Of a stretch of 63,439 nt of DNA, positions 1 to 62,491 are shown in pieces. The notes under the pieces were generated by a model, which was given only the letters and a program-made list of their open reading frames with translations, was not told the origin of the DNA and made no database searches. The position numbers and the translations under genes were made by a program. The DNA lies in the IMG/VR virus record IMGVR_UViG_3300044825_001916, positions 1 to 63,439 of that record, one strand, 5' to 3'. The stretch is from a virus. Within the stretch, counting starts at the first letter, position 1; each line of letters starts with the position of its first letter.

Positions 1-167
1 ACGCGGTTGTCGGGGCCTCGCCAGTTGCCGCCGGCTTTCTTGTATTCCTTCGAGGCCCAGGCGTTCGCATAGGCAGAAGGGTAAACGTCGAACTTGGCCT
101 TGGCCGCCGCCTTCTTGGCGCTCCAGAGCTTCGGGTTCGTCGGCTTCGGAGATCCCGCCTTCGCCAT
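1..167 (-). CDS. Small basic protein, C-terminus cut by window edge
   Basis: This is the left-end allele of the gene at 56745-56924. The visible part starts MAKAGSPKPTNPKLW and continues through a conserved FDVYPSAYANAWASKEYKK segment. It is rich in Lys, Ala and Gly. Small lysine-rich proteins with this YPSAYAN signature are common in phage structural regions; the function is unknown. DNA identity to the right copy is about 96% (six differences by eye in 167 bases, mostly third positions). The stop codon lies outside the window. Only two bases separate its start from the stop of the next gene upstream. Confidence 0.75.
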   Translation of the reverse strand, partial: MAKAGSPKPTNPKLWSAKKAAAKAKFDVYPSAYANAWASKEYKKAGGNWRGPDNR

Positions 168-169
168 GG

Positions 170-430
170 TCAGCAGTCCCACTTCCGCAGGGCCAGGGCC
201 TTGCGCGTCGGCCGGCCCTTCTCATCCTTCATGGGGCCGGGAGCCCCGCTCATCCTGGCGCAGAAGGACTTCCGGCGGCCGGCAGCCACCTCGCTCTTCG
301 CTGCCTGCTTGGCCGAGACCGGCGGCTTGATGTCGTGACCCTGAGCCCGCAGAGACGCCCGCCCCTTGGCGTTCAGGCCGCCCTCGGGGTTCTTGCCTTC
401 CTTGCGCTGCCAGGCAGGCGTCTTCGGCAT
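170..430 (-). CDS. DUF6321-like small basic phage protein
   Basis: The 86-residue product begins MPKTPAWQRKEGKNPEGG and carries the signature GGLNAKGRAS, then RRKSFCAR and a terminal LRKWDC. This pattern (GGLNAKGR...KSFCARM...LRKWxC) matches what I know as the DUF6321 family, found in many phages. Function is unknown. It has conserved Cys and many Lys/Arg, and sits among virion genes. The homologue at 57358-57621 has an identical first part but a different middle and end. The Met at 430 is preferred over an upstream Met because family members begin at the MPKTPAW position. Confidence 0.75.
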   Translation of the reverse strand: MPKTPAWQRKEGKNPEGGLNAKGRASLRAQGHDIKPPVSAKQAAKSEVAAGRRKSFCARMSGAPGPMKDEKGRPTRKALALRKWDC

Positions 431-1761: not shown

Positions 1762-2082
1762 TTACTGGATGCCCGCCTGGAGCAGCGTCAGACGCACCGT
1801 GCCGCCGCCGGAATTGACCAGCAGCCGGATCGCCGTCACCGGAAAGGCGTAGTTGCCGTCAGCACTGGCGCCCAGGGCCGCAACGGTGGGGTGATCAAAC
1901 CACGTCGCCGTGCTCGGGTTGAAGGTCGGCGAGAAGACATCGTCGAAGGTATGCTGGACGGTGTAGTTGGCTGTGCCCGTGACAACAGCCGCGAACCCGA
2001 TGTTGAAGGGGCTCGTGTTCAGGTTCATCGGGGACACAGCGGAAGCTCCGACCCCCGTCTGCGTCAGATCAATGCGGCGCAT
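1762..2082 (-). CDS. Small virion protein (capsid-decoration candidate)
   Basis: A 106-residue product with features of small phage head proteins: NYTVQHTFDDVFSPTFNP, TATWFDHP, and a beta-rich C-terminus (AIRLLVNSGGGTVRLTLLQ). I recall similar proteins beside capsid genes in other phages, but cannot name a family with certainty. Its ATG overlaps the stop of the HNH gene (TGATG). In the right-end allele the position after the capsid gene is taken by an unrelated 133-residue protein (58159-58560), which may fill the same role. Confidence 0.6.
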   Translation of the reverse strand: MRRIDLTQTGVGASAVSPMNLNTSPFNIGFAAVVTGTANYTVQHTFDDVFSPTFNPSTATWFDHPTVAALGASADGNYAFPVTAIRLLVNSGGGTVRLTLLQAGIQ

Positions 2083-2801
2083 CAGCTCGCTCCTGGAGGG
2101 CGTTGGTCGGGGGTTCCGACCGGCTTACAAGATAGCACATAGCTTCGAGCCTTGGCCATTAATGCCTCATCGTCGCCAAAGAGCCCGATTGCGGTGTTGC
2201 AGGCAGAACAAAGCAACCCTCGAACGCGACCCGTTGCATGATCGTGATCCACGGCAAGCGCGACCACTCTACCGCGTATCTCGTTACCTTCCGCCCTTTC
2301 GCATATGGCGCAAACCCCATTTTGGGCTGACAGCATTTGATTGTAATGCTCAATGCTTATGCCGTACTTGCGGCGCAAAAACGCACTTTTGTGATAGCTT
2401 GGATTTGCCGCGCGCATTTTTGCTGAATATTCGCGCATGTAGGCGGCCCGATCTTCGCGCTTTTTTAATTCAACTATAGGCTCTTTCCAGTAAAAGTTAT
2501 CAGCTCCCCACGGCTGTCCAGCATCAATTCTTTGCGCTCTTGCGCGGCCTGTCGGTCTTTCGGGCGTTTCAGCCACAAAGCTCCAAAAATCATCGAGCCA
2601 TTTTTGGGGAGTAGAAAGAAAGTGATATCGTCTTAGGCCGCACCACGCCTTGTACTTTGGGTGTTTTTCTTTTGCGCCCCAGTCTTTGGGCCTCGTTTGG
2701 CCGACATTTCCGTGCCGAGCCAGTCGCTTGCGATGAGTGTCGCACAATCCATTAGAAACAGAAGGTCTTGAGCAATTATGTATGTGGCATTTGGTCGGCA
2801 T
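2082..2801 (-). CDS. HNH homing endonuclease, endonuclease VII-like
   Basis: A 239-residue protein. The N-terminus has Cys/His pairs (CHIHNCSRP...CDTHRKR) like a small zinc finger. The C-terminus has CAICERAEG...LAVDHDHATGRVRGLLC..CNTAIGLFGDD, the zinc-binding His-Asp-His arrangement of the recombination endonuclease VII/HNH family. Such free-standing genes are usually homing endonucleases. It lies directly after the capsid gene in the left-end allele and is absent there in the right-end allele. It is visibly more AT-rich than its neighbours, as expected of a recent arrival. An AAGGA ribosome site precedes the ATG. Confidence 0.85.
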   Translation of the reverse strand: MPTKCHIHNCSRPSVSNGLCDTHRKRLARHGNVGQTRPKDWGAKEKHPKYKAWCGLRRYHFLSTPQKWLDDFWSFVAETPERPTGRARAQRIDAGQPWGADNFYWKEPIVELKKREDRAAYMREYSAKMRAANPSYHKSAFLRRKYGISIEHYNQMLSAQNGVCAICERAEGNEIRGRVVALAVDHDHATGRVRGLLCSACNTAIGLFGDDEALMAKARSYVLSCKPVGTPDQRPPGAS

Positions 2802-2866: not shown

Positions 2867-3781
2867 CTACACCCCAGGTGTGCCAAAGACGGTGCGCGGG
2901 TCGGTCCAGCCGAACGCGTAACGCTCGGTGGCCTTGTAGCGCATGCTGTCGGTCTCGAAGTCGCCTTCCATGCTCTTCTCGAGCGAGCGGCGCATCAGCA
3001 GCTTCAGGCCTTCCGGCGCGTCCGTCTGCACCCACCAAGCGGTGGTGGAGGTCAGACGCGACAGGTTGGCCTGGCCGCCGGACAGCAGCCCCATGGAGTT
3101 CACGGGGTTGATGTCGTTGAAGTTCGTGCCGGCACGCAGCACGCTCTTCAGCAGCACTTCCGCCTGGAAGACGTTCGACGGCGACACCACCAGCTTCGTC
3201 GGCTGAAGCCGGATGCGCTTGCCGTTGTTGTCGACGGCGTTGCGGATCTGGACCAGCAGCTGCTCGAGCGACGTCTGCGAGAGGTTCGCAGCGGTCGTGA
3301 GCTGGTTGCTGAACGTGCCGTTCACGATCGGGTGCGCGTTGGACACCAGCGACACGCCGTCGCCGCCAACGAACGCGCCGTTGAACGCGCGGTTCAGGAT
3401 GTTCGCGCCCAGCGTTTCCTTGGTCTCGATCAGCGACTGAGCAAGGTGGCGGGCATAGGTCTGCCCGATCTTGATGTGGTCGCCGTCTTCGACCAGCACC
3501 TTCGTCAGCGCGAAGGCGAGGCCGTAGACCTTGTAGAGGTAGCGCTGGATGAACAGCACACCGCCCGACTGGTAGGTGACCGGGGTGCCGTCCGGCAGCT
3601 CAGGAGCCGCGCCGAAGCCGTACAGGACCGGCTCTTCATGGTAGTTGCGCGGCGTGCCGCGGCTCTCCTTGAAGACCTGCTTGTACTCATCAGCGCGCTG
3701 CTCGTAGATGCCATCGAACTCTTCCGAGATGATGGGCTCAACGATCGACCGAAACTGGGTCGAGTTCATCGGCATTGCCAT
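2867..3781 (-). CDS. Major capsid protein
   Basis: A 304-residue protein with the size and order expected of a phage capsid gene: portal, co-chaperonin, scaffold, then this. Landmarks are MNSTQFRSIVEPIISEEF at the N-terminus, an ARHLAQSLIETKETLGANIL helix, the FNGAFVGGDGVSLVSNAHP loop and LQPTKLVVSPSNVFQAE. These resemble the HK97-fold capsid proteins annotated as Mu gpT-like or phage major capsid protein. A GAGGAGG ribosome site precedes the ATG, as expected of a very highly expressed gene. The copy at 58662-59576 encodes the same protein, but the last ~20 codons differ at silent sites, marking the edge of the repeat. Confidence 0.85.
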   Translation of the reverse strand: MAMPMNSTQFRSIVEPIISEEFDGIYEQRADEYKQVFKESRGTPRNYHEEPVLYGFGAAPELPDGTPVTYQSGGVLFIQRYLYKVYGLAFALTKVLVEDGDHIKIGQTYARHLAQSLIETKETLGANILNRAFNGAFVGGDGVSLVSNAHPIVNGTFSNQLTTAANLSQTSLEQLLVQIRNAVDNNGKRIRLQPTKLVVSPSNVFQAEVLLKSVLRAGTNFNDINPVNSMGLLSGGQANLSRLTSTTAWWVQTDAPEGLKLLMRRSLEKSMEGDFETDSMRYKATERYAFGWTDPRTVFGTPGV

Positions 3782-3795
3782 GGCTCAGGCCCTCC

Positions 3796-4350
3796 TCAGA
3801 ACGGGTTCACGGCAGCCGCGAACTGGTGCTTCGCGATCTTGGCCTGAACGATGGTGAAAGCGTCACCGGGCACGTTGTTGATGTCGGTGGCGATGTTGAG
3901 GACCGCGAGCTGCCCCGCCGTGCTGGCGGAGGTCGTCGCGTTCATCGTCGCTGTGGACATGCCGAGCCCGTTGCTCGCGGTGATGTTCGTGAAGTCGGCC
4001 TGCTGGCCGATTTCCGAAATCGTCACCGGGCCGTCCGCCTGGATCTCGTAGACGATCTCCGGGTCAGACGTGAAGTACGCGACGATGTCGGTCGCGACGG
4101 TGTTCGCGGGCCACACGTTCGAGACCACGCGACGGCCAGTGACCGGCGTGTACTCGCAGCCCTGGAACGAACCCACGAAGGCGTCGCCGATGGCGGCGGC
4201 CTGGAGGGTGCCGTCGGTGCCGATCTTCACAGGCTGGCCCGTGAAGATGTTCGCAGCATAAGCGGAGGCGATAGTGCCGGCCTCCTGACGGATCACCCCC
4301 GAGGGGTGCTTCGCCGGGCGGAGCCCGAACGGTGCGTTAACCGAAGACAT
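3796..4350 (-). CDS. Capsid-associated structural protein (decoration candidate)
   Basis: A 184-residue product, MSSVNAPFGLRPAKHPSG at the start, with no signal peptide or membrane segment. It is rich in Ala, Thr and Val with alternating beta-type pattern (TGQPVKIGTDGTLQAAAIGDAFVG, DGPVTISEIGQQADF). Similar proteins lie immediately upstream of capsid genes in many podoviruses and are thought to be head structural or decoration proteins. It is 14 bases upstream of the capsid gene, which suggests coordinated, high-level expression. A second identical copy lies at 59591-60145. Confidence 0.65.
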   Translation of the reverse strand: MSSVNAPFGLRPAKHPSGVIRQEAGTIASAYAANIFTGQPVKIGTDGTLQAAAIGDAFVGSFQGCEYTPVTGRRVVSNVWPANTVATDIVAYFTSDPEIVYEIQADGPVTISEIGQQADFTNITASNGLGMSTATMNATTSASTAGQLAVLNIATDINNVPGDAFTIVQAKIAKHQFAAAVNPF

Positions 4351-4394
4351 CCTATGTCTCTTTCACGCAAGGGGTTGGGGAACCCCACGCTTCT

Positions 4395-4940
4395 CTAGGT
4401 GAAGATGGGCGTGGGAACGTGGCGCCGCATGTCCGCCGTACCATCGCCTTCCATCACGTTCGACCCCATCGCGCGCGCCTGCTCGCGGATCAGGTCGGCC
4501 GTCTCGGCCAGCTTGCCCTCTTCCTCCATTGGCATCTTGTGATGCGCCTCGGCCATGTACCGCTGGTACAGGGACGTGGGCAGCTTGAATGCCAGCATCT
4601 CGTTGACACCGATGAAGCCCTGATATTCGCCCGTCTTCAGAGTGGCATAATCCCAGCCGGGCACGTCCTTCGGGGTGATCGGCTCATATCCGAGACGGAT
4701 GCGAGCCTGGATGGTGTCGCGAGGGTTGGTGGTTGTGAGCCAGCAAACGTGATAGCCGGGGATCTCCGGCAGATCGGGCAGCGCAGACTGCCAGAACGAC
4801 TGGCGGAACATGGACACGCGGTCGTTGTCCGACAGCTCTCGGTCCTGCGTCACAGCGCGATCCTGCATCGCGCGGTCAGACTTGTCCGAGCCCATGCTCT
4901 TCTTCAGGCGTTCGTCGATCGAGTTGGTCATGTCACTCAC
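4395..4940 (-). CDS. Virion-region protein of unknown function
   Basis: A 181-residue product with a charged N-terminus (SIDERLKKSMGSDKSDRAMQ) followed by a compact domain with GYHVCWLTTTNPRDTIQARI and EPITPKDVPGWDY. I recall proteins of this pattern between scaffold and capsid genes in many phages, without a known role. A strong AGGAGTGAG ribosome site precedes the ATG. The gene lies five bases after the scaffold candidate, so it is probably a head-assembly component. Confidence 0.6.
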   Translation of the reverse strand: MSDMTNSIDERLKKSMGSDKSDRAMQDRAVTQDRELSDNDRVSMFRQSFWQSALPDLPEIPGYHVCWLTTTNPRDTIQARIRLGYEPITPKDVPGWDYATLKTGEYQGFIGVNEMLAFKLPTSLYQRYMAEAHHKMPMEEEGKLAETADLIREQARAMGSNVMEGDGTADMRRHVPTPIFT

Positions 4941-4945
4941 TCCTA

Positions 4946-5854
4946 TCAGCGAGTTGCGTTTCGTTCAGCGTCGGCCATGCGCGCAAGAACTCGCTTGCGC
5001 TTCACGGGGTCATCCCACACGCCAGCCTCGACCATGGCCTGCTTGGCCTCGGGGCTGACGTAGACTTCCCTCTTTGTAGACGACGAAGCATGTTCCCGGC
5101 CACCACCAATTGGCGGGCCGCGACGGGTTGCCGGCCCAGGCTTCTGAGGCGCACCGGCACGGGACGGCAGCCGCTTCTCGACGCGGCGCTGCAGCTCGTC
5201 CCAATATTCAGCCGTGGTCGGATCCCAGCCTTCAGCCGCCAAGCGATTGTCGATCGCGTTGACGATCGCGCTGTCCTCGTCCTTGGCGTCGGGATCGTAC
5301 CAGGGGTTATCTTCCATCCACTCCTGGGCGTGGGTCTTCAGGCGCGGGTCCACGCGCTCCGGCGGGGCGTCGGCGCGCTGGAAGCGGGTCTTCACCGCCG
5401 ACAGCTCGCGGGCCTCGTTGAGCGCCTCGTCCCGGGCCCGGAGGGCCTGGGCGGTGCGGGTGCCGTCGCCGGCCTGCACTGCCTCGGCCAGGACGCGCTC
5501 GGCGTGCTGGGCGCGCAGCTGGGCGGTGGAGAGGCGCTCGTCGACCGCGCGCAGATCCTGCTGGACCGTGCGGCCCTCAAGGGACTGCAGGCGGCGCTCA
5601 AGTTCCTCGTTGCGGCGGCGGAGGACGTCCAGCTCCGCCAGCGTCATCTCTTTGCCCTTGCGGCGGCGCTCGCGGGCCCGGCGGCGCTCCTCACGCCGTG
5701 CCGCACGGACCTCTTCGGAGCCGCCCTCCTCCTGACCGTCCTCGCCTTCGGACCCAGCGGAGAGGCGCTCGTCGCGCTCGTCGCCCTGATCGGGCGGCGT
5801 CTCAACGACGACGATGTCGTCGTCGTCCTTCTCGGTGATCTTCTCGGTACTCAT
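4946..5854 (-). CDS. Probable head scaffolding protein
   Basis: A 302-residue, very charged protein. Residues 1-50 are dominated by Asp/Glu (KDDDDIVVVE, GSEGEDGQEEGGSEE). Residues about 50-140 are a long Arg/Glu coiled coil (RREERRRARERRRKGKE, LRRRNEELERRLQSLE). The C-terminal part is Pro/Arg-rich and ends in a short helical domain (SPEAKQAMVEAGVWDDPVKR). Length, charge, coiled coil and position between portal and capsid fit a scaffold; there is no conserved catalytic motif. AAAGGAG precedes the ATG. Confidence 0.7.
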   Translation of the reverse strand: MSTEKITEKDDDDIVVVETPPDQGDERDERLSAGSEGEDGQEEGGSEEVRAARREERRRARERRRKGKEMTLAELDVLRRRNEELERRLQSLEGRTVQQDLRAVDERLSTAQLRAQHAERVLAEAVQAGDGTRTAQALRARDEALNEARELSAVKTRFQRADAPPERVDPRLKTHAQEWMEDNPWYDPDAKDEDSAIVNAIDNRLAAEGWDPTTAEYWDELQRRVEKRLPSRAGAPQKPGPATRRGPPIGGGREHASSSTKREVYVSPEAKQAMVEAGVWDDPVKRKRVLARMADAERNATR

Positions 5855-5877
5855 GCTCGGCTCCTTTCAGCCAAACG

Positions 5878-6306
5878 TCAGATGAAAGCCTTGATGGCCA
5901 GCGGGTCGCCGGTCACCTTTCCGATCACGTCGAGGTCGTTGAAGATCACGAACATCGCCGGCTCGTCGCGGTTCTCAGTGGGCACTTCCCACCGATCGCC
6001 GCCGTACTTGGGCACGCGCACGAAGTCGCCAGGGCCGCACCATGCGCCCTCTTTCCACTCCTGCATGGTGTCGCGGTTGCGGAAGGCGAGCGGTCCCATG
6101 GCGACAACCTTCGCCACCTGGGTGTTCCACTTCTCCGTGTCCTTGGTCTCGGACGTCAGGATGATGCCGCCCGCGCTCTTCATCTTCGGGGTTCGGATCT
6201 GCACCAGGATCCGCGATCCTGCTGGTTCCACGCCCGGATCCGCGGCCGGAAATGCCTGCCGCAGGCGCTCAGTAGACTGGTTTTCCGACGTGACGCTCGA
6301 TGCCAC
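5878..6306 (-). CDS. GroES-like co-chaperonin (Cpn10)
   Basis: Predicted partner of the host GroEL ring for folding the capsid protein, in the manner of T4 gp31. The core shows the Cpn10 order: SRILVQIRTPKMKSAGGIIL (beta strand and start of the mobile-loop region), WNTQVAKVVAMGP, then WCGPGDFVRVPKYGGDRWEV and FVIFNDLDVIGKVTG at the end. At 142 residues it is longer than bacterial GroES (~95), with an N-terminal extension and an insertion after VVAMGPLAF. The GTG at 6306 is chosen because GAGGAG lies seven bases upstream; an ATG at 6348 is possible but deep inside the upstream gene. It lies between portal and scaffold. Confidence 0.75.
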   Translation of the reverse strand: MASSVTSENQSTERLRQAFPAADPGVEPAGSRILVQIRTPKMKSAGGIILTSETKDTEKWNTQVAKVVAMGPLAFRNRDTMQEWKEGAWCGPGDFVRVPKYGGDRWEVPTENRDEPAMFVIFNDLDVIGKVTGDPLAIKAFI

Positions 6307-6493
6307 CGTCCATCTCCTCAAGACGATCTCCGATTGCCATTTCGACAACCTCGATCGCGCGTTGCAGACCGGCGTACATGCCGGTCACCCTCCCGTACTC
6401 GAACGCATCGCGTCCTGCCGGGCTGCTCATGGCCTGATGAGCGATCTCGTTGAGTTCGCGCTTCAGGGCGGACAATATCCGCACTTCTGACAT
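6269..6493 (-). CDS. Small helical protein upstream of the co-chaperonin gene
   Basis: A 74-residue, mostly alpha-helical product (MSEVRILSALKRELNEIAHQ...GLQRAIEVVEMAIGDRLEEM). No motif recognised. Its 3' end overlaps the co-chaperonin start by about 40 bases, suggesting translational coupling. It could be a minor head-assembly protein. Confidence 0.6.
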   Translation of the reverse strand: MSEVRILSALKRELNEIAHQAMSSPAGRDAFEYGRVTGMYAGLQRAIEVVEMAIGDRLEEMDGGIERHVGKPVY

Positions 6494-6532
6494 TATGGTG
6501 CCGCCAAGCAGGACGCAAGCATCGCTCTGGGA

Positions 6533-6685
6533 TTACTTCGCGGGAGCCTTGCCGCCGCCGGAGGATTTGCCGTTGGTCGAGCGGATTGGCGCCTTCGGCA
6601 TGTTGGTCTTGTTGCCCGTCATGGGGTTGTTGCCCATGGCGAGGTTCTTGCGCAGCGGGATCAGGTTGGCGTTCGGGGTCTTCAT
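6533..6685 (-). CDS. Very small Lys/Asn-rich protein after portal
   Basis: A 50-residue open frame starting MKTPNANLIPLRKNLAMG and ending GGGKAPAK. It lies 11 bases after the portal stop, with GGAG just upstream of its ATG, and has a basic, low-complexity composition like the other small basic proteins of this phage. Intact in both copies of the repeat (see 62328-62480). Confidence 0.6.
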   Translation of the reverse strand: MKTPNANLIPLRKNLAMGNNPMTGNKTNMPKAPIRSTNGKSSGGGKAPAK

Positions 6686-6696
6686 GGCACTCTCCT

Positions 6697-9276
6697 TCAC
6701 GGGGACGGGTTGATGCCGGTGCCCGTCGAGAGGCCCGAGCGATTGCCGGCGAGGATCTCGGCGCTGGAGATGCGCAGAGCGGTGTCGTTGTCCTGGGTGT
6801 TGATAGCCTGGCGCGCAGCCAGCTCGGCCATCTTGCGCTTGTCCTCCGCAGCCTGGCGCTCGGCCTGGAGCTGGATGTCGACGTTCGCGCGCATCTGCTC
6901 GACGGCGATGTCGGTCTGCTGCTCCATGGCGCGCTCCTGCATCTTGATCTGGTCAAGCTGCGCGTCGCGCTGGCTTTCGGCCTGCTGGATGGCCAGCTTC
7001 TGCTGGTCGAGCTGAGCGCGCTGGGCGTCGGCCTGGGCGCGCTGCTGCAGGGCCTGCATCTGAACCTGCCCGGGGTCGGTCGGCTTCGGCTGCATGGACT
7101 GCACGTACTGGATCGCCTGCTGCAGGATGGGCGGCAGCTGAGCCAGGGCCTGACCGCCGGCCGCGACGACGTCGTCCGACGCCACCGCCAGGAGCCGGTC
7201 GAAGTTCTGGTTTACCTCGGGATCCTTCGGATCCATGAGCTGCGCGATGTCCATGCCCGCAGCCTCGCTCGTCAGGCTGAACACGGCGTTCACGTACCAG
7301 AGCGCGATGTGGTCGCGCAGGTGCGTGATCATGGACGGCACGAAGGTCGGCGAGATGGCCGGGTTCTGGCCGAACACGGGGCTCATCAGGAAGTCCAGGT
7401 GGACCTTGATGTGGGCCGCGTGATCCTGGTCGGGGAAGGCGACGATCGGGCGCGACATGGTCGCGGCGACGTTCTCGTTCACCGGGTTCATGCGCTCGGG
7501 CTCCGGCTTCGGCAGCAGGAGGCGCTTCGCCGCGTCCGGGATCTTGCTCTGCTCGAGGATCATCTCCTCGACCTTGCGCAGGTCGTACAGCTGCGGCATC
7601 GCCGCGGCCCGCTGCGCGATGAGCGCGACCTGGGCGTGGCGCTGCACGTCGGAGAAGATGTTCGGGTCGGAGACCGGGACGACGTCAAGCGGGCCCTCGA
7701 AATCGGAGCGCCGGACCATGATCTCGCCGGTGTCGTCGTAGACCTCGCTCTCCTCAAGGTAGGTGCAGTTGATCCGGTGCAGGATCCGCAGCGCCCGGCC
7801 CATCGCGGCGTGCAGGCGCGCGTGGATGGAGGAGAAGACGGTCATGCCCTGCTCGATGAGCGCGAGCGTGGTGCCGACCGGCTGGTTCTGGTTCACTTCG
7901 CCCAGCTTGTCGAAGCTGGTGCGGACGACGTTCTTGCCTGCGTCCACCATGAAGCCCAGCAGCTGGAACAGCACCGGGCTCGGCTGGTTGTACGGCAGAG
8001 GCATGATGGCCTTGCGGATGTCGTCGACGTTCAGCGGCGCCTCGATCTCGTTGATCGAAGCCGGGTCGATCGACATCGACTGGCCGCCCTTGCCGGCGGA
8101 GCGCATCCGCAGGAGGGTCTGCGAGTTGCTGATGTGGGCGCTGTCGAGCAGGGCGCGGAGGGCGCCGGTGGACGCGCCCGAGAGGCCGCCGATCATGTGC
8201 GGAAGGCCAATCGGGTACGCGCCGCGCCAGGGGATGAAGGGCCACTCAACGAACCAGTGCAGCTCCTCGCGGCGCTCGTCCTCGGGATCCCAGTTGCGGT
8301 AGATCGAGAGGACCGCGCGCGTGTGCTTGTCGATCGTCACGACGTAGGGGGACGGAGGCTCGTCCTCGTCCTCGTTCTCGATCTCGGCGTGGCAGTAGAT
8401 CTCGAAGATCGTGCGCAGGCCGTCGTCGTTGTAGGCGTCCTGGTCGCGGCCCTCGATCTTGTCGTTGGCCTTGGCCGGACCCGTCTGGTCGATCTGGGTC
8501 TCCGGCATCAGGTCGACGTCGCGGTACATTCCCGAGCGGACGCGTCGGCTATACTCCAGCTCCGTCAGGTACTGGACGTGCGTCCGGCGCTCAGCCGTCT
8601 CGAACGAGGTGGCGGCGAACGGCAGGTACATATCGTCGATCGGCACGAACATGGCGCGCGGGCGCTTCAGGCGCGCGTCCCAGTACAGCTTCAGGTACTG
8701 GGCGCCGCCGAGCGGAACCTGCGTGATGGTCTGCTCCAGCTCGGGCCGGAACTCCGTCATCTGCTCGGTCAGCTGCCAGTTCATGTAGCGCTTCTTGCGC
8801 TCAGCCTTGTCGAGCTTCTTCTGCGTGACCTCGCCCGGGATCTTGGTCTTCACCGGGCCGTCGGGCGGCAGCAGCTCCTTCAGCGCGCGGGCGGCGAAGT
8901 CGACGGCTGCCTCGGTCAGGAGCGGGTGGACAACACGGGACGCGCCCTCGAACTGGGCACCGCCAGGCGCATCGTCACCGAGCCCGGTGCGGCGCAGGCC
9001 TTCCTCATACTGCTCGTCGCGCTTCTTGCGCGCTTCTTTGTCGCGGGTGACTTTGTCGTACAGCTCGGTCGCGACCGTCGACAGCACGCTGTCGGGCAGC
9101 GCCTCCGCCAGGTTGGCGAAGTGGTCGGGGTTGTCCTCGACCTGATCTTCGTCATCGAGGCGCACGATCGCGCCGCCGTCGTCGGTGTCCTCGACGCTGT
9201 CGTCGACGTCGAGCGGCATGAGCTGCCCGTCGCCGTTGTCGTCATCGTCGGGGAGGTCGAGGTCGTCGGGCGTCAT
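6697..9276 (-). CDS. Portal protein
   Basis: An 859-residue protein, the expected size for a podovirus-type portal. The N-terminus is acidic and disordered (DDLDLPDDDDNGDG). The core shows portal features: RRTGLGDDAPGGAQFEGASR, PLLTEAAVDFAARALKELLP, PWRGAYPIGLPHMIGG, SMSIDPASINEIEAPLNVDD and LGEVNQNQPVGTTLALIEQG. The C-terminal ~200 residues are a Gln/Ala-rich helical barrel (QAESQRDAQLDQIKMQERAM), as in the long barrels of P22-like portals. It forms the twelvefold DNA channel at one capsid vertex. A C-terminal partial copy lies at 62492-63439. Confidence 0.85.
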   Translation of the reverse strand: MTPDDLDLPDDDDNGDGQLMPLDVDDSVEDTDDGGAIVRLDDEDQVEDNPDHFANLAEALPDSVLSTVATELYDKVTRDKEARKKRDEQYEEGLRRTGLGDDAPGGAQFEGASRVVHPLLTEAAVDFAARALKELLPPDGPVKTKIPGEVTQKKLDKAERKKRYMNWQLTEQMTEFRPELEQTITQVPLGGAQYLKLYWDARLKRPRAMFVPIDDMYLPFAATSFETAERRTHVQYLTELEYSRRVRSGMYRDVDLMPETQIDQTGPAKANDKIEGRDQDAYNDDGLRTIFEIYCHAEIENEDEDEPPSPYVVTIDKHTRAVLSIYRNWDPEDERREELHWFVEWPFIPWRGAYPIGLPHMIGGLSGASTGALRALLDSAHISNSQTLLRMRSAGKGGQSMSIDPASINEIEAPLNVDDIRKAIMPLPYNQPSPVLFQLLGFMVDAGKNVVRTSFDKLGEVNQNQPVGTTLALIEQGMTVFSSIHARLHAAMGRALRILHRINCTYLEESEVYDDTGEIMVRRSDFEGPLDVVPVSDPNIFSDVQRHAQVALIAQRAAAMPQLYDLRKVEEMILEQSKIPDAAKRLLLPKPEPERMNPVNENVAATMSRPIVAFPDQDHAAHIKVHLDFLMSPVFGQNPAISPTFVPSMITHLRDHIALWYVNAVFSLTSEAAGMDIAQLMDPKDPEVNQNFDRLLAVASDDVVAAGGQALAQLPPILQQAIQYVQSMQPKPTDPGQVQMQALQQRAQADAQRAQLDQQKLAIQQAESQRDAQLDQIKMQERAMEQQTDIAVEQMRANVDIQLQAERQAAEDKRKMAELAARQAINTQDNDTALRISSAEILAGNRSGLSTGTGINPSP

Positions 9277-22937: not shown

Positions 22938-23343
22938 GGTTCTCGCGCAGGCTCGGCGCCTGCACATGCACGTCATGAACGGCGGCAACGTCACGGCGAT
23001 CGACATGTCGCGCCTGGTGCAGGGCATGGAGCGGCTGCAGGCTGAACGTGTTCACATTATCGACCTCGCCCACCTAGCCATCGAGTACGCCCGCAAGCAG
23101 GCCTATGCCGACGCAAGGGGCCACATCGAGTTCGCTGCCGAGTGCGCGCCTTTCGTTGAGCGGTTCAAGAAGGCCGCCCGCGCTGCTCTTGGGGAGCTCA
23201 ACTCAATCAGCGACAACCCGCCGCCTTGCCCCAACCCAGAGCAAGCTTGCCGCCAGTATCAAGCGACGCCCGGCGTTTGGGTTTGCAGCAATTTCGGATG
23301 CGCGCGAATGCCGAAGCAATTGAAGGAACAAACCCATGAATGA
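22927..23343 (+). CDS. DIVERLR-related protein with Cys4 tail (member 3)
   Basis: 138 residues from a GTG start. The N-terminus differs from other members, but GMERLQAERVHIIDLAHLAI, RGHIEFAAECAPFVERF and ARAALGE match member 6. After ARAALGE comes the Cys4 module NSISDNPPPCPNPEQACRQY...VWVCSNFGCARMPKQLKEQ, with spacing C-x6-C-x11-C-x4-C, which could bind a metal. The module is nearly identical in member 5, also at DNA level. Confidence 0.7.
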   Translation: MSDEVLAQARRLHMHVMNGGNVTAIDMSRLVQGMERLQAERVHIIDLAHLAIEYARKQAYADARGHIEFAAECAPFVERFKKAARAALGELNSISDNPPPCPNPEQACRQYQATPGVWVCSNFGCARMPKQLKEQTHE

Positions 23344-23356
23344 CATCGTGGAGCGT
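23200..23356 (+). repeat. 157-bp direct repeat, copy 1 (Cys4-tail module)
   Basis: Repeated at 23836-23992, 636 bp on, with about seven substitutions by eye. It spans the Cys4 tail of one gene plus the start codon and first codons of the next, so the unit is tail plus next start rather than a whole gene. Confidence 0.85.
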
Positions 23357-23545
23357 CTGCGCTTAGATGCAGAACCTACTGAAAGCGACATGGAAGAAGC
23401 AGCTACCGAGATCGAGCGGCTTCGGGTCGAGCGGGCCCGGCTGCGGTTGGCGCTGCGGATCATCGCTGGTTACGAGCAGTGCCTTGATAACTTGATGAGC
23501 AATGGTGATCTCGCCCGCGCAGCACTCGGGGAGGACCAGACATGA
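23336..23545 (+). CDS. DIVERLR-family coiled-coil protein (member 4)
   Basis: 69 residues, starting MNDIVERLRLDAEPTESDME with the second signature EAATEIERLRVERARLRLAL. It ends ARAALGEDQT, without the Cys4 tail. Overlaps member 3 by eight bases and member 5 by four. Confidence 0.7.
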   Translation: MNDIVERLRLDAEPTESDMEEAATEIERLRVERARLRLALRIIAGYEQCLDNLMSNGDLARAALGEDQT

Positions 23546-23979
23546 CCGACATTGTGGAGCGGCTGCGGGTCGGAATTCACATCAGCGTTGACGAAAACAT
23601 GCTGCGAAATGAAGCCGCCGACGAGATCGAGCGGCTACAGACCGAGCGCGACCTGCTGCAAATCAATATCGTCCTACTTGAAGCAACCGGCGCCGACGCC
23701 TCTGACGAGATCGATCGGCTGCGGAGGGCGCTGCGCGCTTTAGCCGATATCGACGGTAGTCCAGCTAATGTGGCGAACGCTGAAGTGTTGGCCTCAAGGG
23801 TCCGCAACTGCGCCCGTGCCGCACTCGGGGAGGCCAACTCAATCAGCGATAACCCGCCGCCTTGTCCCAACCCAGAGCAAGCTTGCCGCCAGTATCAAGC
23901 GATGCCCGGCATTTGGGTTTGCAGCAATTTCGGATGCGCGCGAATGCCGAAGCAACTGAAGGAACAAACCCGTGAATGA
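23542..23979 (+). CDS. DIVERLR-family protein with Cys4 tail (member 5)
   Basis: 145 residues. Starts MTDIVERLRVGIHISVDENM, with two EI(E/D)RL signatures (AADEIERLQTERDLLQ and SDEIDRLRRALRAL), then ARAALGE and the Cys4 module found in member 3 (CPNPEQACRQYQAMPGIW, VCSNFGCARMPKQLKEQ). The two heads share only the general coiled-coil pattern, so the tail appears to have been transferred as a unit. Confidence 0.7.
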   Translation: MTDIVERLRVGIHISVDENMLRNEAADEIERLQTERDLLQINIVLLEATGADASDEIDRLRRALRALADIDGSPANVANAEVLASRVRNCARAALGEANSISDNPPPCPNPEQACRQYQAMPGIWVCSNFGCARMPKQLKEQTRE

Positions 23980-23992
23980 CATCGTGGAGCGG
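23836..23992 (+). repeat. 157-bp direct repeat, copy 2 (Cys4-tail module)
   Basis: Second copy of the unit at 23200-23356. One of the differences changes the start codon of the following gene from ATG to GTG. Most others fall at third codon positions, which suggests the tail has been kept under selection since it was copied. Confidence 0.85.
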
Positions 23993-24244
23993 CTGCGGGC
24001 CGAGGGCGCGCTGGCCGGGCATTACGACGCGCCGGCCATCCAGCGCGAGGCGGCCGACGAGATTGAGCGGCTGAGGGCAGAGCGCGACAGGCTTATCCAC
24101 CTTGCCCACATAGCCATCGAGTACGCCTACAAACAGGGCCATGCAGAAGCAAAGGGCCACATCGAAGTTGCTGCCGAGTGCGCGCCTCTCGTTGAGCAGT
24201 TCAAGAAAACTGCCCGCGCTGCGCTCGGGGAAAACCAGACATGA
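23972..24244 (+). CDS. DIVERLR-family coiled-coil protein (member 6)
   Basis: 90 residues from a GTG start. NDIVERLRAEGALAGHYDAP, then AADEIERLRAERDRLIHLAH, then the central module shared with member 3 (IAIEYAYKQGHAEAKGHIE, VAAECAPLVEQFKKTARAAL) and a short GENQT end. It therefore combines the head of members 4/5 with the body of member 3. Confidence 0.7.
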   Translation: MNDIVERLRAEGALAGHYDAPAIQREAADEIERLRAERDRLIHLAHIAIEYAYKQGHAEAKGHIEVAAECAPLVEQFKKTARAALGENQT

Positions 24245-56744: not shown

Positions 56745-56924
56745 TCACTTGCCCTTCACGCGGTTGTCGGGGCCTCGCCAGTTGCCGCCGGCCTTCTTGT
56801 ATTCCTTCGAGGCCCAGGCGTTCGCGTAGGCGGAGGGGTAGACGTCGAACTTGGCCTTGGCCGCCGCCTTCTTGGCGCTCCAGAGCTTCGGGTTCGTCGG
56901 CTTCGGGGATCCCGCCTTCGCCAT
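56745..56924 (-). CDS. Small basic protein (right-end allele)
   Basis: 59 residues, MAKAGSPKPTNPKLWSAKKA, the intact version of the gene cut by the left window edge. YPSAYANAWASKEYKKAGGN is the conserved part. The Met at 56924 is chosen because it follows the HNH stop as TGAccATG, the same junction as in the left allele, where the HNH is missing. Confidence 0.7.
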   Translation of the reverse strand: MAKAGSPKPTNPKLWSAKKAAAKAKFDVYPSAYANAWASKEYKKAGGNWRGPDNRVKGK

Positions 56925-56926
56925 GG

Positions 56927-57370
56927 TCAAGACACCCCCTGACAATAAAGCGGCTCATCCGGCCTTCCGCCCCAGGCTACAGCACATTTCCCGCAAGCGC
57001 ATCGGCCGCGAAGATACATGGCCGCCAACTCCATCAGGTCGGGGTCGTCCCGGAAATGGCCAAGCCCCATGTTGCAGCGCTGACAGAGGCGCCCGCGTAC
57101 TCGGCCAGTGCGGTGGTCGTGGTCTACAACCAGATTGCCCGTGTCGCCGCAGATTACGCACTCACTCAGCGTCCGAGCAACAGCAACCATATGCTCTTGA
57201 TCTGGCCGAACGCCTTGGAGCTTCCGGTATCCCTTCCTGTACTCAGAGCGGCACGAACGGCACCAACTATCAAAGCTGTTTGCCTTTTTTTTGTGCCGAG
57301 GAAAAAACTCAAGCGTCAAGGGCTTGATTTCTTTGCAGCGTGTGCATGCCGATGTGGTTAACAATCCCAT
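56927..57370 (-). CDS. HNH homing endonuclease, endonuclease VII-like
   Basis: 147 residues. An N-terminal zinc-ribbon pair (TRCKEIKPLTLEFFPRHKKK; WCRSCRSEYRKGYRK) precedes CVICGDTGNLVVDHDHRTGR, VRGRLCQRCNMGLGHF, the endonuclease VII-type HNH core. In the left-end allele this gene is absent and its two neighbours are only two bases apart. Its start codon lies in the last codons of the DUF6321-like gene. Confidence 0.9.
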   Translation of the reverse strand: MGLLTTSACTRCKEIKPLTLEFFPRHKKKANSFDSWCRSCRSEYRKGYRKLQGVRPDQEHMVAVARTLSECVICGDTGNLVVDHDHRTGRVRGRLCQRCNMGLGHFRDDPDLMELAAMYLRGRCACGKCAVAWGGRPDEPLYCQGVS

Positions 57371-57621
57371 TTGCGCCTCGCTTTACTGAGGCGGCTGTTG
57401 GGATCCTTTGCCGCGTCGGGAAACATCTTCGCCTGCCCAGCAGAACGGGCGCAGAAGGACTTCCGGCGGCCGGCAGCCACCTCGCTCTTCGCCGCCTGCT
57501 TGGCGGAGACCGGCGGCTTGATGTCGTGGCCCTGAGCCCGCAGAGACGCCCGCCCCTTGGCGTTCAGGCCGCCGGTCTCGGACTGGCCCTCCTTACGCTG
57601 CCAAGCAGGCGTCTTCGGCAT
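57358..57621 (-). CDS. DUF6321-like small basic protein (right-end allele)
   Basis: 87 residues, with GGLNAKGRASLRAQGHDIKP, RRKSFCARSAG and end RRKWDC. Same N-terminal half as the left-end copy; the centre and end differ (GQAKMFPDAAKDPNSRLSK), and this copy has the NDPxSRxxKAxRKW-type end usual in the family. It is overlapped at its start by one HNH gene and at its end by another. Confidence 0.75.
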   Translation of the reverse strand: MPKTPAWQRKEGQSETGGLNAKGRASLRAQGHDIKPPVSAKQAAKSEVAAGRRKSFCARSAGQAKMFPDAAKDPNSRLSKARRKWDC

Positions 57622-58153
57622 CCGCTTTCTCCACAACAAGTCGGCAAAGACGGACGAACTCAGCCATGGAGCTGTCAAGCTTCATCGTGTTCGCCACCCT
57701 ACAAACCAACTGAACATTACCAGCAGTGTAGCCCGCTTGGGGGTTTATTCGATCAATGCTGGCATTCGTCGGAACGACGCGCTGCCCGAGCTTTATGGTC
57801 ATCTCCAGCCCAGTCAACGCACATTTGCCGTCCTGACGAGACCAGAGAGCTTGCAAATAACTCAGAGAGACGTCGCACGCGGCTCGCTTGGCAGCCTTGG
57901 CCCGAAGGTATGACAGATACGCGCCAACACTTGAGCTTCTCTTCATGGCCGAAAATTGAAGTTTTTCAGGCCCCCAGGTTCGTTGATGATAAGAGGCCGC
58001 CTTTGCCTTAATGCAATTCTTGCACCATGAGTTATACTTCTTTCCGCCCGAAGCGTTCTTGCCGGTCGTATAATAGCAGGACAGAGGAAGAACTTCCCCG
58101 CACTTTGTGCAGGCTTTCCTCCCGCAAGGCAGAACGGTGGACGGAGGTGCCAC
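57593..58153 (-). CDS. HNH endonuclease with N-terminal zinc ribbon (GTG start)
   Basis: 186 residues from the GTG at 58153, five bases after the stop of the upstream virion gene; the frame upstream of it is a shadow. ACTKCGEVLPLSCYYTTG and WCKNCIKAKAASYHQRTWG form a zinc ribbon; KCALTGLEMTIKLGQRVVP, TNASIDRINPQAGYTAGNVQ and LVCRVANTMK form the HNH core. The end overlaps the next gene's start by 29 bases. It is more AT-rich than its surroundings. Confidence 0.8.
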   Translation of the reverse strand: MAPPSTVLPCGRKACTKCGEVLPLSCYYTTGKNASGGKKYNSWCKNCIKAKAASYHQRTWGPEKLQFSAMKRSSSVGAYLSYLRAKAAKRAACDVSLSYLQALWSRQDGKCALTGLEMTIKLGQRVVPTNASIDRINPQAGYTAGNVQLVCRVANTMKLDSSMAEFVRLCRLVVEKADAEDACLAA

Positions 58154-58158
58154 CGTCG

Positions 58159-58560
58159 TCAGCCGTATGTCTTGATGGCTTCGATGACCACCGTGTAGCC
58201 GTCCCCGACAGACGCGTCGTTGGTGGTGAAGGTGACCGTGCCAGTGGGCGTCACCGCGTTGTTCGTCAGGCCGCCAAAAGACGAGAAATCGTGCTCGTAG
58301 GACATATTCTGAGGCAGCAGGAAGGCGTATCCCGGCGTCGCACCCCCAAAACGGATCAGCACCTCCAGGCCGTGCGTGCCGAACCAGATCTTGTTGATCT
58401 TCACGCCCGTGCAGGCCTGGCCGGCGGCGTTCCGGGACAGGTTGGCCGGGATGATCTTCGGCACGTTGGTCTCGCCCGTGCCGTCGGACAGGTTCGTGAA
58501 CTTCTGGATGACGAGGCGTTCGCCATCGAGGATCGTCTGCGTCGAAACAGTATCGGGCAT
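58159..58560 (-). CDS. Small virion protein next to the capsid gene (right allele)
   Basis: 133 residues: TVSTQTILDGERLVIQKFTN, LSDGTGETNVPKII, INKIWFGTHGLEVLIRFGGA and the beta end TPTGTVTFTTNDASVGDGYT, VVIEAIKTYG. This protein commonly follows the capsid gene in podoviruses and is annotated as a virion structural protein. It stands where the left allele has the 106-residue protein and its fibre. Confidence 0.7.
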   Translation of the reverse strand: MPDTVSTQTILDGERLVIQKFTNLSDGTGETNVPKIIPANLSRNAAGQACTGVKINKIWFGTHGLEVLIRFGGATPGYAFLLPQNMSYEHDFSSFGGLTNNAVTPTGTVTFTTNDASVGDGYTVVIEAIKTYG

Positions 58561-58598
58561 GCGTGCGCCTCAACGGCCGGAGGGTGGAGTATTCCCGG

Positions 58599-58610
58599 CA
58601 CTCTACCGCA
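58599..58610 (-). promoter_or_regulatory. Shared intergenic 12-mer (right copy)
   Basis: TGCGGTAGAGTG on the minus strand followed by CCGGGA, as at 471-482. It lies about 40 bases before the start codon of the 133-residue virion gene and after the capsid terminator. Confidence 0.3.
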
Positions 58611-58633
58611 GGCGTGCGGCAGCCGGAAGGAGA

Positions 58634-58657
58634 AATGGGGGGCCGAAGCCCCCCATT
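58634..58657 (-). terminator. UUCG-capped terminator after the capsid gene
   Basis: A perfect 10-bp stem (58634-58643 with 58648-58657), which on the minus-strand RNA is AAUGGGGGGC-UUCG-GCCCCCCAUU, followed by UCUCCUUCC. The UUCG tetraloop is exceptionally stable. It begins within about five bases of the capsid stop and should cap the abundant capsid message, with partial read-through to the tail genes. Confidence 0.75.
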
Positions 58658-58661
58658 CCAA

Positions 58662-59576
58662 TCAGACGCCCGGAGTACCGAACACCGTGCGCGGGTCGGT
58701 CCAACCGAACGCGTAACGCTCGGTGGCCTTGTAGCGCATGCTGTCGGTCTCGAAGTCGCCTTCCATGCTCTTCTCAAGCGAGCGGCGCATCAGCAGCTTC
58801 AGGCCTTCCGGCGCGTCCGTCTGCACCCACCAGGCGGTGGTGGAGGTCAGACGCGACAGGTTGGCCTGGCCGCCGGACAGCAGCCCCATGGAGTTCACGG
58901 GGTTGATGTCGTTGAAGTTCGTGCCGGCACGCAGCACGCTCTTCAGCAGCACTTCCGCCTGGAAGACGTTCGACGGCGACACCACCAGCTTCGTCGGCTG
59001 AAGCCGGATGCGCTTGCCGTTGTTGTCGACGGCGTTGCGGATCTGGACCAGCAGCTGCTCGAGCGACGTCTGCGAGAGGTTCGCAGCGGTCGTGAGCTGG
59101 TTGCTGAACGTGCCGTTCACGATCGGGTGCGCGTTGGACACCAGCGACACGCCGTCGCCGCCAACGAACGCGCCGTTGAACGCGCGGTTCAGGATGTTCG
59201 CGCCCAGCGTTTCCTTGGTCTCGATCAGCGACTGAGCAAGGTGGCGGGCATAGGTCTGCCCGATCTTGATGTGGTCGCCGTCTTCGACCAGCACCTTCGT
59301 CAGCGCGAAGGCGAGGCCGTAGACCTTGTAGAGGTAGCGCTGGATGAACAGCACACCGCCCGACTGGTAGGTGACCGGGGTGCCGTCCGGCAGCTCAGGA
59401 GCCGCGCCGAAGCCGTACAGGACCGGCTCTTCATGGTAGTTGCGCGGCGTGCCGCGGCTCTCCTTGAAGACCTGCTTGTACTCATCAGCGCGCTGCTCGT
59501 AGATGCCATCGAACTCTTCCGAGATGATGGGCTCAACGATCGACCGAAACTGGGTCGAGTTCATCGGCATTGCCAT
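58662..59576 (-). CDS. Major capsid protein (second copy)
   Basis: Same 304-residue protein as 2867-3781. Differences are silent and confined to the 3' end of the gene. In the genome it is presumably one gene, seen twice because the window wraps around. Confidence 0.85.
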   Translation of the reverse strand: MAMPMNSTQFRSIVEPIISEEFDGIYEQRADEYKQVFKESRGTPRNYHEEPVLYGFGAAPELPDGTPVTYQSGGVLFIQRYLYKVYGLAFALTKVLVEDGDHIKIGQTYARHLAQSLIETKETLGANILNRAFNGAFVGGDGVSLVSNAHPIVNGTFSNQLTTAANLSQTSLEQLLVQIRNAVDNNGKRIRLQPTKLVVSPSNVFQAEVLLKSVLRAGTNFNDINPVNSMGLLSGGQANLSRLTSTTAWWVQTDAPEGLKLLMRRSLEKSMEGDFETDSMRYKATERYAFGWTDPRTVFGTPGV

Positions 59577-59590
59577 GGCTCAGGCCCTCC

Positions 59591-60145
59591 TCAGAACGGG
59601 TTCACGGCAGCCGCGAACTGGTGCTTCGCGATCTTGGCCTGAACGATGGTGAAAGCGTCACCGGGCACGTTGTTGATGTCGGTGGCGATGTTGAGGACCG
59701 CGAGCTGCCCCGCCGTGCTGGCGGAGGTCGTCGCGTTCATCGTCGCTGTGGACATGCCGAGCCCGTTGCTCGCGGTGATGTTCGTGAAGTCGGCCTGCTG
59801 GCCGATTTCCGAAATCGTCACCGGGCCGTCCGCCTGGATCTCGTAGACGATCTCCGGGTCAGACGTGAAGTACGCGACGATGTCGGTCGCGACGGTGTTC
59901 GCGGGCCACACGTTCGAGACCACGCGACGGCCAGTGACCGGCGTGTACTCGCAGCCCTGGAACGAACCCACGAAGGCGTCGCCGATGGCGGCGGCCTGGA
60001 GGGTGCCGTCGGTGCCGATCTTCACAGGCTGGCCCGTGAAGATGTTCGCAGCATAAGCGGAGGCGATAGTGCCGGCCTCCTGACGGATCACCCCCGAGGG
60101 GTGCTTCGCCGGGCGGAGCCCGAACGGTGCGTTAACCGAAGACAT
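59591..60145 (-). CDS. Capsid-associated structural protein (second copy)
   Basis: Identical in sequence to 3796-4350; see there. Confidence 0.65.
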   Translation of the reverse strand: MSSVNAPFGLRPAKHPSGVIRQEAGTIASAYAANIFTGQPVKIGTDGTLQAAAIGDAFVGSFQGCEYTPVTGRRVVSNVWPANTVATDIVAYFTSDPEIVYEIQADGPVTISEIGQQADFTNITASNGLGMSTATMNATTSASTAGQLAVLNIATDINNVPGDAFTIVQAKIAKHQFAAAVNPF

Positions 60146-60189
60146 CCTATGTCTCTTTCACGCAAGGGGTTGGGGAACCCCACGCTTCT

Positions 60190-60735
60190 CTAGGTGAAGA
60201 TGGGCGTGGGAACGTGGCGCCGCATGTCCGCCGTACCATCGCCTTCCATCACGTTCGACCCCATCGCGCGCGCCTGCTCGCGGATCAGGTCGGCCGTCTC
60301 GGCCAGCTTGCCCTCTTCCTCCATTGGCATCTTGTGATGCGCCTCGGCCATGTACCGCTGGTACAGGGACGTGGGCAGCTTGAATGCCAGCATCTCGTTG
60401 ACACCGATGAAGCCCTGATATTCGCCCGTCTTCAGAGTGGCATAATCCCAGCCGGGCACGTCCTTCGGGGTGATCGGCTCATATCCGAGACGGATGCGAG
60501 CCTGGATGGTGTCGCGAGGGTTGGTGGTTGTGAGCCAGCAAACGTGATAGCCGGGGATCTCCGGCAGATCGGGCAGCGCAGACTGCCAGAACGACTGGCG
60601 GAACATGGACACGCGGTCGTTGTCCGACAGCTCTCGGTCCTGCGTCACAGCGCGATCCTGCATCGCGCGGTCAGACTTGTCCGAGCCCATGCTCTTCTTC
60701 AGGCGTTCGTCGATCGAGTTGGTCATGTCACTCAC
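60190..60735 (-). CDS. Virion-region protein (second copy)
   Basis: Identical to 4395-4940; see there. Confidence 0.6.
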   Translation of the reverse strand: MSDMTNSIDERLKKSMGSDKSDRAMQDRAVTQDRELSDNDRVSMFRQSFWQSALPDLPEIPGYHVCWLTTTNPRDTIQARIRLGYEPITPKDVPGWDYATLKTGEYQGFIGVNEMLAFKLPTSLYQRYMAEAHHKMPMEEEGKLAETADLIREQARAMGSNVMEGDGTADMRRHVPTPIFT

Positions 60736-60740
60736 TCCTA

Positions 60741-61649: not shown

Positions 61650-61672
61650 GCTCGGCTCCTTTCAGCCAAACG

Positions 61673-62101
61673 TCAGATGAAAGCCTTGATGGCCAGCGGG
61701 TCGCCGGTCACCTTTCCGATCACGTCGAGGTCGTTGAAGATCACGAACATCGCCGGCTCGTCGCGGTTCTCAGTGGGCACTTCCCACCGATCGCCGCCGT
61801 ACTTGGGCACGCGCACGAAGTCGCCAGGGCCGCACCATGCGCCCTCTTTCCACTCCTGCATGGTGTCGCGGTTGCGGAAGGCGAGCGGTCCCATGGCGAC
61901 AACCTTCGCCACCTGGGTGTTCCACTTCTCCGTGTCCTTGGTCTCGGACGTCAGGATGATGCCGCCCGCGCTCTTCATCTTCGGGGTTCGGATCTGCACC
62001 AGGATCCGCGATCCTGCTGGTTCCACGCCCGGATCCGCGGCCGGAAATGCCTGCCGCAGGCGCTCAGTAGACTGGTTTTCCGACGTGACGCTCGATGCCA
62101 C
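61673..62101 (-). CDS. GroES-like co-chaperonin (second copy)
   Basis: Identical to 5878-6306, with the same GTG start and GAGGAG ribosome site. Confidence 0.75.
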   Translation of the reverse strand: MASSVTSENQSTERLRQAFPAADPGVEPAGSRILVQIRTPKMKSAGGIILTSETKDTEKWNTQVAKVVAMGPLAFRNRDTMQEWKEGAWCGPGDFVRVPKYGGDRWEVPTENRDEPAMFVIFNDLDVIGKVTGDPLAIKAFI

Positions 62102-62288
62102 CGTCCATCTCCTCAAGACGATCTCCGATTGCCATTTCGACAACCTCGATCGCGCGTTGCAGACCGGCGTACATGCCGGTCACCCTCCCGTACTCGAACG
62201 CATCGCGTCCTGCCGGGCTGCTCATGGCCTGATGAGCGATCTCGTTGAGTTCGCGCTTCAGGGCGGACAATATCCGCACTTCTGACAT
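62064..62288 (-). CDS. Small helical protein (second copy)
   Basis: Identical to 6269-6493; see there. Confidence 0.6.
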   Translation of the reverse strand: MSEVRILSALKRELNEIAHQAMSSPAGRDAFEYGRVTGMYAGLQRAIEVVEMAIGDRLEEMDGGIERHVGKPVY

Positions 62289-62327
62289 TATGGTGCCGCC
62301 AAGCAGGACGCAAGCATCGCTCTGGGA

Positions 62328-62480: not shown

Positions 62481-62491
62481 GGCACTCTCCT

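Follow-up and report, generated by a model that had tools for sequence, protein, structure and literature searches.

The window analyzed here, meaning the whole stretch of 63,439 bases, is a metagenomic phage contig (IMG/VR virus record IMGVR_UViG_3300044825_001916) to which Caulobacter phage RW and its kin are distantly related (75% identity over ~12% of the query). Its ends overlap by 4.8 kb: positions 2871-7644 and 58666-63439 are 99.8% identical, with 10 mismatches in 4,774 nt, all ten of which fall within the first ~180 nt and none in the next 4.6 kb. The circular map size given by this overlap is 55,795 bp (58666-2871; ~55.8 kb), and the overlap most simply points to an assembly that goes once round a circle of that size and then runs into a strain variant, such that 1-2870 and ~56758-58665 would derive from two coexisting strains joined by the assembler. 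Given the same overlap, the idea of two copies in one genome, or of tandem prophages, was dropped. The original prediction, which saw an occupied and an empty version of one HNH insertion site in the same window, thus described two real alleles, although these are most simply two strains rather than copies in one genome. The strain junction does not weaken the comparison of these alleles, which becomes one of close relatives; the overlap of the ends does call for care with any finding that treats them as separate loci of a single genome. Elsewhere in the window, a small-ORF region (23026-24231) contains tandemly related stretches of 170-187 nt, with 81-93% identical copies ~0.6-1.0 kb apart, likely a local gene duplication.

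All genes at the locus are encoded on the minus strand, with extents taken from their ORFs and starts. The left, empty allele comprises a DUF6321 gene of 86 aa (170..430; PF19846, 86.3 bits), with a native tail of the MSG..PMKDEKGRPTRKAL type, and a next gene that is weakly DUF5872-like (its Pfam match is below the cut-off), the left copy of which (1..167) is cut by the contig end and is 96.5% identical to 56758-56929. Here, the DUF6321 stop and the following start are joined as TGA-cc-ATG (172..165, read on the minus strand), as had been noted. In the right, occupied allele, a 147-aa ORF, HNH1 (56927..57370), is placed between a DUF6321 gene of 87 aa (57358..57621; PF19846, 61.2 bits) and an intact, 59-aa copy of the same next gene (56745..56924). 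The HNH1 ATG overlaps the last DUF6321 codons, and DUF6321, HNH1, and the next gene are all open ORFs. A further endonuclease gene, HNH2 (57593..58153; 186 aa, GTG start; PHROG 1035, endonuclease VII, E 5e-27), lies just 5′ of the occupied DUF6321 gene and overlaps it.

The alleles part company inside the DUF6321 gene. Identity is 98% up to position 257 (left) or 57448 (right) and then ends abruptly after TTC TGC GCC (FCA), the last ~28 codons being of two types, RMSGAPGPMKDEKGRPTRKALALRKWDC in the left allele versus RSAGQAKMFPDAAKDPNSRLSKARRKWDC in the right. The DUF6321 cores of the window pair are 97.4% identical, and their tails show 53.6% nucleotide identity. Identity resumes at the native stop, in that the left match extends to -87 of the empty gene and the right match runs from -2. 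Hence, the native 3′ end including its stop (170..256) is absent from the occupied allele, in which a foreign end of the SAGQ type (57358..57447) is fused in frame to the native core and contains the HNH1 ATG; this carried tail and HNH1 form the first and second halves of the element. From the position at which identity ends, we infer an insertion and cutting point at ~256/257 (FCA|RM codons).

The original prediction had a free-standing endonuclease gene entering exactly between the two genes, with a duplicated T(A/G)ACC and with no loss of coding sequence. The motif is indeed present at both junctions and all of the ORFs are open, but the allele alignment contradicts this reading: identity of the left flank already ceases 84 nt ahead of the stop, behind the DUF6321 FCA codons, and the 84 nt of the native end have given way to a different end. 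The neighbors are intact in the sense that their ORFs remain open, but DUF6321 has exchanged its 3′ end for one that the endonuclease carries along. The right TGACC needs no duplication, since the HNH1 TGA is the old DUF6321 stop, followed by the native spacer, and the left TAACC is part of the carried tail. Alignment with relatives, which had been suggested as a check alongside that claim, put the breakpoint not at the stop but at the FCA codons, both in the window and in every near-isogenic pair. We therefore consider an insertion between unchanged neighbors to be very unlikely.

Near-isogenic relatives showed both the empty and the occupied version of the site, as had been proposed, with flanks 94-98% identical and a clean insertion of ~0.5 kb. 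In the pair L177 (occupied) and L246 (empty), identity was 97.4% in the left flank, which reaches -95 of the native gene, and 96.3% in the right flank, which begins at -90; L177 carries an insertion of ~0.5 kb and retains the native tail GMKAKLTSAATARDPDSRINKSLRAWDCN behind the endonuclease. Left flanks of 96% and right flanks of 94-98% identity were found for L173 and L174 versus L291 (flank identities of 97.8/96.2/97.6% for L174/L291), and here too the native tail, RMKGMK[DE]KLTSAKTANDPDSRINKSLRAWDCN, was kept. L182 had the same insertion as L177, but its displaced tail was gone and the right flank resumed at -9. Further pairs with this site or one close to it were L171/L263, L170/L274, L292/L290, L206/L151 (flanks 96-98% identical), L164/L325, and L165/L332. 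Altogether, a native-type tail followed the endonuclease in eight loci (L173, L174, L175, L177, L186, L169, L180, and L190) from at least six lineages, with scores of 47-171, the highest control score in this search being 45; the displaced type differed from the carried type in 8/8. A displaced tail above the control level was absent in 37/45 occupied loci, and in the window pair, too, it has been lost. At the level of sequence, then, these comparisons show an optional insertion at one codon position, an in-frame foreign end, and the displacement and later loss of the native end.

The displaced native tail in several occupied relatives, together with empty relatives that are uninterrupted through the site, also supports the direction originally proposed, with the empty version being ancestral. 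Were the occupied arrangement ancestral and the empty one a product of deletion, the foreign tail and endonuclease would have to be removed exactly, with the frame restored from the displaced fragment, many times over. Moreover, empty genes are far commoner: 17/230 DUF6321 loci were occupied (4/78, 12/73, and 1/79) in scans run with queries other than the endonuclease, the scan giving 12/73 having used the N-terminal part of an occupied gene and leaning towards its kin. These counts also indicate that the element is optional. Deletions do happen here, as seen in L182, which is without the displaced tail that L177 keeps, yet we regard a deletion origin of the empty version as even less likely than insertion between the genes. 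Least likely of all is an assembly artefact, in which chimeric contigs would make the apparent junctions; the window contig does join two strains, but contigs from several different metagenomes have this architecture too (e.g., L174, L175, L176 and L177, L178).

When comparison was restricted to locus pairs with DUF6321 cores at least 90% identical, tails of empty-empty pairs had a median identity of 92% (1/64 pairs under 60%), those of empty-occupied pairs a median of 55% (12 of the 13 pairs under 60%), and those of occupied-occupied pairs a median of 99%. On the endonuclease tree, in which many forks are weak, carried tail type required 7 changes versus 13.2 with shuffled labels (0/200). Across all occupied loci, similarity of the tail and similarity of the endonuclease showed no significant partial correlation once the core was controlled for (0.07, p 0.137), this being a weak test with 28-residue tails of few saturated types; therefore, the argument rests on the near-isogenic pairs, the displaced tails, and the label test on the weak-forked tree. 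The SAGQ tail is native to many empty loci, and thus the tail alone is no hallmark of the element. Our reading of these comparisons is that the element brings a tail of a different type from that of the gene it enters. Carried tails of the form NFRARMCGM...NVKC, seen in L193-L199 and L206 (L151 is the empty partner), shift the conserved Cys, turning FCARM into FRARMC, as if the target codons had been altered and the Cys retained nearby.

A scan with HNH1 recovered 80 viral loci, the best 54 of which (44-71% identity) were all directly 3′ of DUF6321, while the weaker 26 were not. The endonuclease start lay exactly at -13 from the end of the DUF6321 stop codon in 31/45 dereplicated occupied loci, where an A ahead of a conserved Trp codon gives ATGG, and the DNA downstream of the endonuclease varied between phages. 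Close HNH1 relatives all came from metagenomic contigs, no relative with >39% identity was found in cultured phages among the best-covered matches, and the scan of bacterial and archaeal genomes returned two weak matches only. Two loci (L167 798-1620 and L168 4001-4823) had two tandem HNH1-type genes after DUF6321 (identity to HNH1 of 71% and 52%), perhaps through reinvasion of an already occupied locus. In L504, L513, L517, and L522, HNH relatives adjoined psbA-like reading frames, a setting like that of F-CphI, discussed below.

HNH1 itself belongs to the EndoVII family (PF02945, 61.7 bits with a cut-off of 23.6; PHROG 2633). Its residues C71/C74, D83, H84, H86, R92, C96/C99, and N100 were conserved in 33 relatives, with H86 nearly invariant and the other motif residues invariant. 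The D, H, H, R, and N lie between two zinc-binding Cys pairs, as in the DHHRN (F-CphI) group, and HNH1 is, again as in this group, an optional gene at a fixed site for which empty alleles exist (near-isogenic loci). PF02945 spans residues 63-121 of 147, such that the EndoVII motif is C-terminal, after an N-terminal extension with an additional CxxC...CxxC. The predicted fold (pLDDT 82) matched that of Hpy99I and, weakly, that of T4 EndoVII. The active site and predicted fold are thus those of EndoVII/DHHRN enzymes, with putative cleavage activity. An Rfam search for introns, covering the window and seven loci, gave no match. A group I or group II intron, or an intein, was rejected because there is a stop codon in the frame of the gene and the insert is almost all tail and endonuclease, leaving no room.

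EndoVII Holliday-junction resolvases have the EndoVII motif at the N-terminus and align over the whole length of T4 EndoVII (PMC6083498). The HNH1 motif, at 63-121, is not N-terminal as in resolvases of the T4 gp49 type, and a resolvase function as its sole role was rejected on this basis, the domain order being that of the endonuclease group. The domain order also argues against modular recombination, in which a tail-endonuclease cassette would be swapped by homologous recombination at the FCAR codons and the next gene, with the EndoVII-type protein a bystander or a resolvase. Such exchange would be in keeping with the mosaicism of phage genomes, with left-flank homology that consists of conserved coding sequence, with the presence of resolvases among EndoVII-family proteins, and with the fact that the window alleles differ in unrelated nearby genes too. 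However, replacement would leave no native tail, and the tail persists in six or more lineages, in which flank identity to the empty allele reaches 97-98%; a single site for all of the best 54 relatives likewise speaks against it. We consider modular recombination unlikely.

The explanation we favor, and hold to be probable on these comparisons, is that HNH1 belongs, as the endonuclease, to a compact homing element without an intron, which regenerates the gene it enters with a recoded end and in doing so removes its target site. The element would be ~0.5 kb in size and consist of a foreign DUF6321 3′ end and an overlapping endonuclease gene that starts inside that end. In a co-infection, the enzyme would cut the DUF6321 gene of the empty phage near the conserved FC[A/R]R|M codons, and repair from the occupied genome would insert the tail and the endonuclease, the insertion being read from allele comparison and the cut and repair presumed. 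The carried tail would then restore the gene in frame, and what had been the native tail would end up as a fragment farther downstream, as in the relatives. With a carried tail that is always of a different type from the displaced one, the element would no longer contain the target site and would not cut itself. Finally, the displaced tail would decay and be lost, as suggested by L177 versus L182, which would give the state of the right allele in the window. Three steps of this cycle are our inference: cleavage of the empty gene by the enzyme where the insertion lies, copying of the element during repair, and protection of the donor by its foreign end. Homing, as originally proposed, is the likely process; the original prediction made a real observation and named the right general process, but missed the main feature, namely that one gene is entered and rebuilt.

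The HNH2 family would represent a mirror image of this design at the 5′ end of DUF6321. HNH2 differs from HNH1 and adjoins the DUF6321 start in the window and in relatives. In the window, codons 6-16 of the occupied gene (57574..57606, minus strand) are unlike those of the left allele in the alignment (KNPE to QSET, plus synonymous changes), a small change that is suggestive of a recoded 5′ end linked to HNH2. A clean 5′ insertion of an HNH2-family endonuclease was seen in L174 and L176 versus L291 and L173, the order being a native start MASPAWQRAEGKNPEG upstream that ends in KA and a stop, the endonuclease, and a new start MGYKTEAWQRKEGQAEE fused to the native GGLNEKG; L174 has both the 3′ and the 5′ element on DUF6321. 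In L066 and L207, too, fragments of native starts precede HNH2 relatives. Of the loci with HNH2, 8/9 lacked the Pro at the second position ahead of GGL, versus 47/221 without (Fisher p 5e-5, kinship ignored). The HNH2 scan itself yielded six loci only, all weak.

Other genes emerged when the surroundings of 211 endonuclease ORFs were searched generically for duplicated gene ends. At thyX, a native start of ~50 codons (MNVSLVWVTPQAEELITRMARVSAPKNQGN...) precedes the endonuclease in L237/L493 (one contig) and L499, and in L493 and L499 an intact ThyX with a divergent start overlaps the endonuclease end (EndoVII-type gene at the thyX 5′ end, L493 834-1353 and L499 1116-1635; ThyX PF02511, E 5e-47; EndoVII PF02945, E 2e-22). 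Related enzymes overlap thyX starts without remnants in L496, L498, and others, and in Vibrio phage PJN101 an EndoVII-like gene overlaps the thyX 3′ end, with no displaced tail seen there. Short duplicated heads, MRIALDIETNM and MKVALDIETNM, flank an endonuclease at the DNA polymerase A gene (PF00476) of L238 (3805-4252), a possible though less certain case of the same 5′ design. In the window, HNH3 (2082..2801, minus strand; 239 aa; PF02945, 78.7 bits) is present in the left allele only and sits just 3′ of the capsid gene, as do other members of its family. The last ~8 codons of this major capsid gene (2867..2896, minus strand) differ synonymously from those of the right copy (58662-58691), the last 30 nt being 73% identical and the preceding 330 nt 99.4%, although a comparison over 36 loci showed that one occupied locus can also differ from another there. 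The S-SRM01, 7B11-B, and Rctr197k regions had no convincing duplicated gene ends. Three EndoVII genes and one HNH gene are annotated around the terminase genes of the cultured Synechococcus phage 7B11-B (L490 738-2731), several of them overlapping their neighbors.

Free-standing phage endonucleases are usually described as lying between genes and cutting elsewhere. On balance, we lean somewhat towards the existence of a general class of phage intron-less homing elements that rebuild gene ends, in which the recoded end would provide both rescue and immunity. This class would include the elements at DUF6321 (at both ends, with two endonuclease families) and thyX, probably that at DNA polymerase A, and perhaps that at the major capsid gene, and it may explain many of the free-standing phage endonucleases that overlap their neighbors. 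If this is true, some phage endonucleases enter conserved coding sequence itself, at the price of having to rebuild the gene, and rebuilding would let elements target the most conserved, and hence most widespread, sites. It would also account for chimeric gene ends in phage genomes, and analyses of phage gene ends, both trees and annotations, could be misled by travelling tails. Since near-isogenic alleles of both kinds, empty and occupied, exist, homing can be tested directly.

Searches of the open-access literature returned no mention of DUF6321 and no phage precedent for a carried gene end. Outside of phages, mobile ORFs (mORFs) are known from fungal mitochondria, in atp6 of Allomyces macrogynus and in atp6, atp9, cox2, and nad3 of Glomus (PMC3630166). 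As in these, an endonuclease ORF lies in a protein gene with a foreign C-terminal end fused in phase, and the native C-terminus is displaced downstream and matches that of a close empty relative (PMC3630166), here in eight relatives; unlike in mORFs, the displaced native end has been lost from the window allele. The mORFs are mitochondrial, encode LAGLIDADG or GIY-YIG enzymes, and have been described for 3′ ends only (PMC3630166), whereas the phage element encodes an EndoVII/DHHRN enzyme, is ~0.5 kb, has its endonuclease start in the carried tail, and comes in 3′ and 5′ versions, even on one gene. Given its EndoVII family and phage setting, the element works like an mORF but is not one.

F-CphI, a DHHRN homing endonuclease of cyanophage S-PM2, is a proven homing member of its group (PMC6083498). 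HNH1 shares with it the D, H, H, R, and N between two Cys pairs, a C-terminal motif, a phage genome, and a gene beside its target (PMC6083498). F-CphI is protected by a group I intron in psbA, in collaborative homing (PMC6083498), whereas protection of the phage element apparently comes from the foreign gene end, with no intron. The seg and mob genes of T4 resemble HNH1 as promoterless endonuclease genes that overlap the upstream gene and home without an intron, with co-conversion (PMC2988022); their location is intergenic, their cut sites are hundreds to thousands of bp distant, and the passages of that review covered here describe no carried gene end for them (PMC2988022). Here, by contrast with that arrangement, the insertion point is inside DUF6321 and the gene end is replaced. 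The ShiLan HNH insertion in a phage methylase (PMC11855218) is likewise intron-less, not an intein, and inside a phage protein gene, but it is in frame within the protein and has no replacement end (PMC11855218), whereas the gene entered by the phage element is ended and rebuilt.

Among synthetic systems, the HomeR gene drive targets an essential gene and carries its rescue (PMC7968924), and by analogy the phage element resembles a naturally occurring version of such engineered home-and-rescue drives. HomeR is engineered, Cas9-based, and operates in Drosophila (PMC7968924), while the phage element is natural and enters a gene, DUF6321, that may or may not be essential. If our interpretation is true, the element would offer a natural, very small model of a drive with built-in rescue. 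The closest architectural precedent for it is the mORFs with carried C-termini, and the closest biochemical one is F-CphI.
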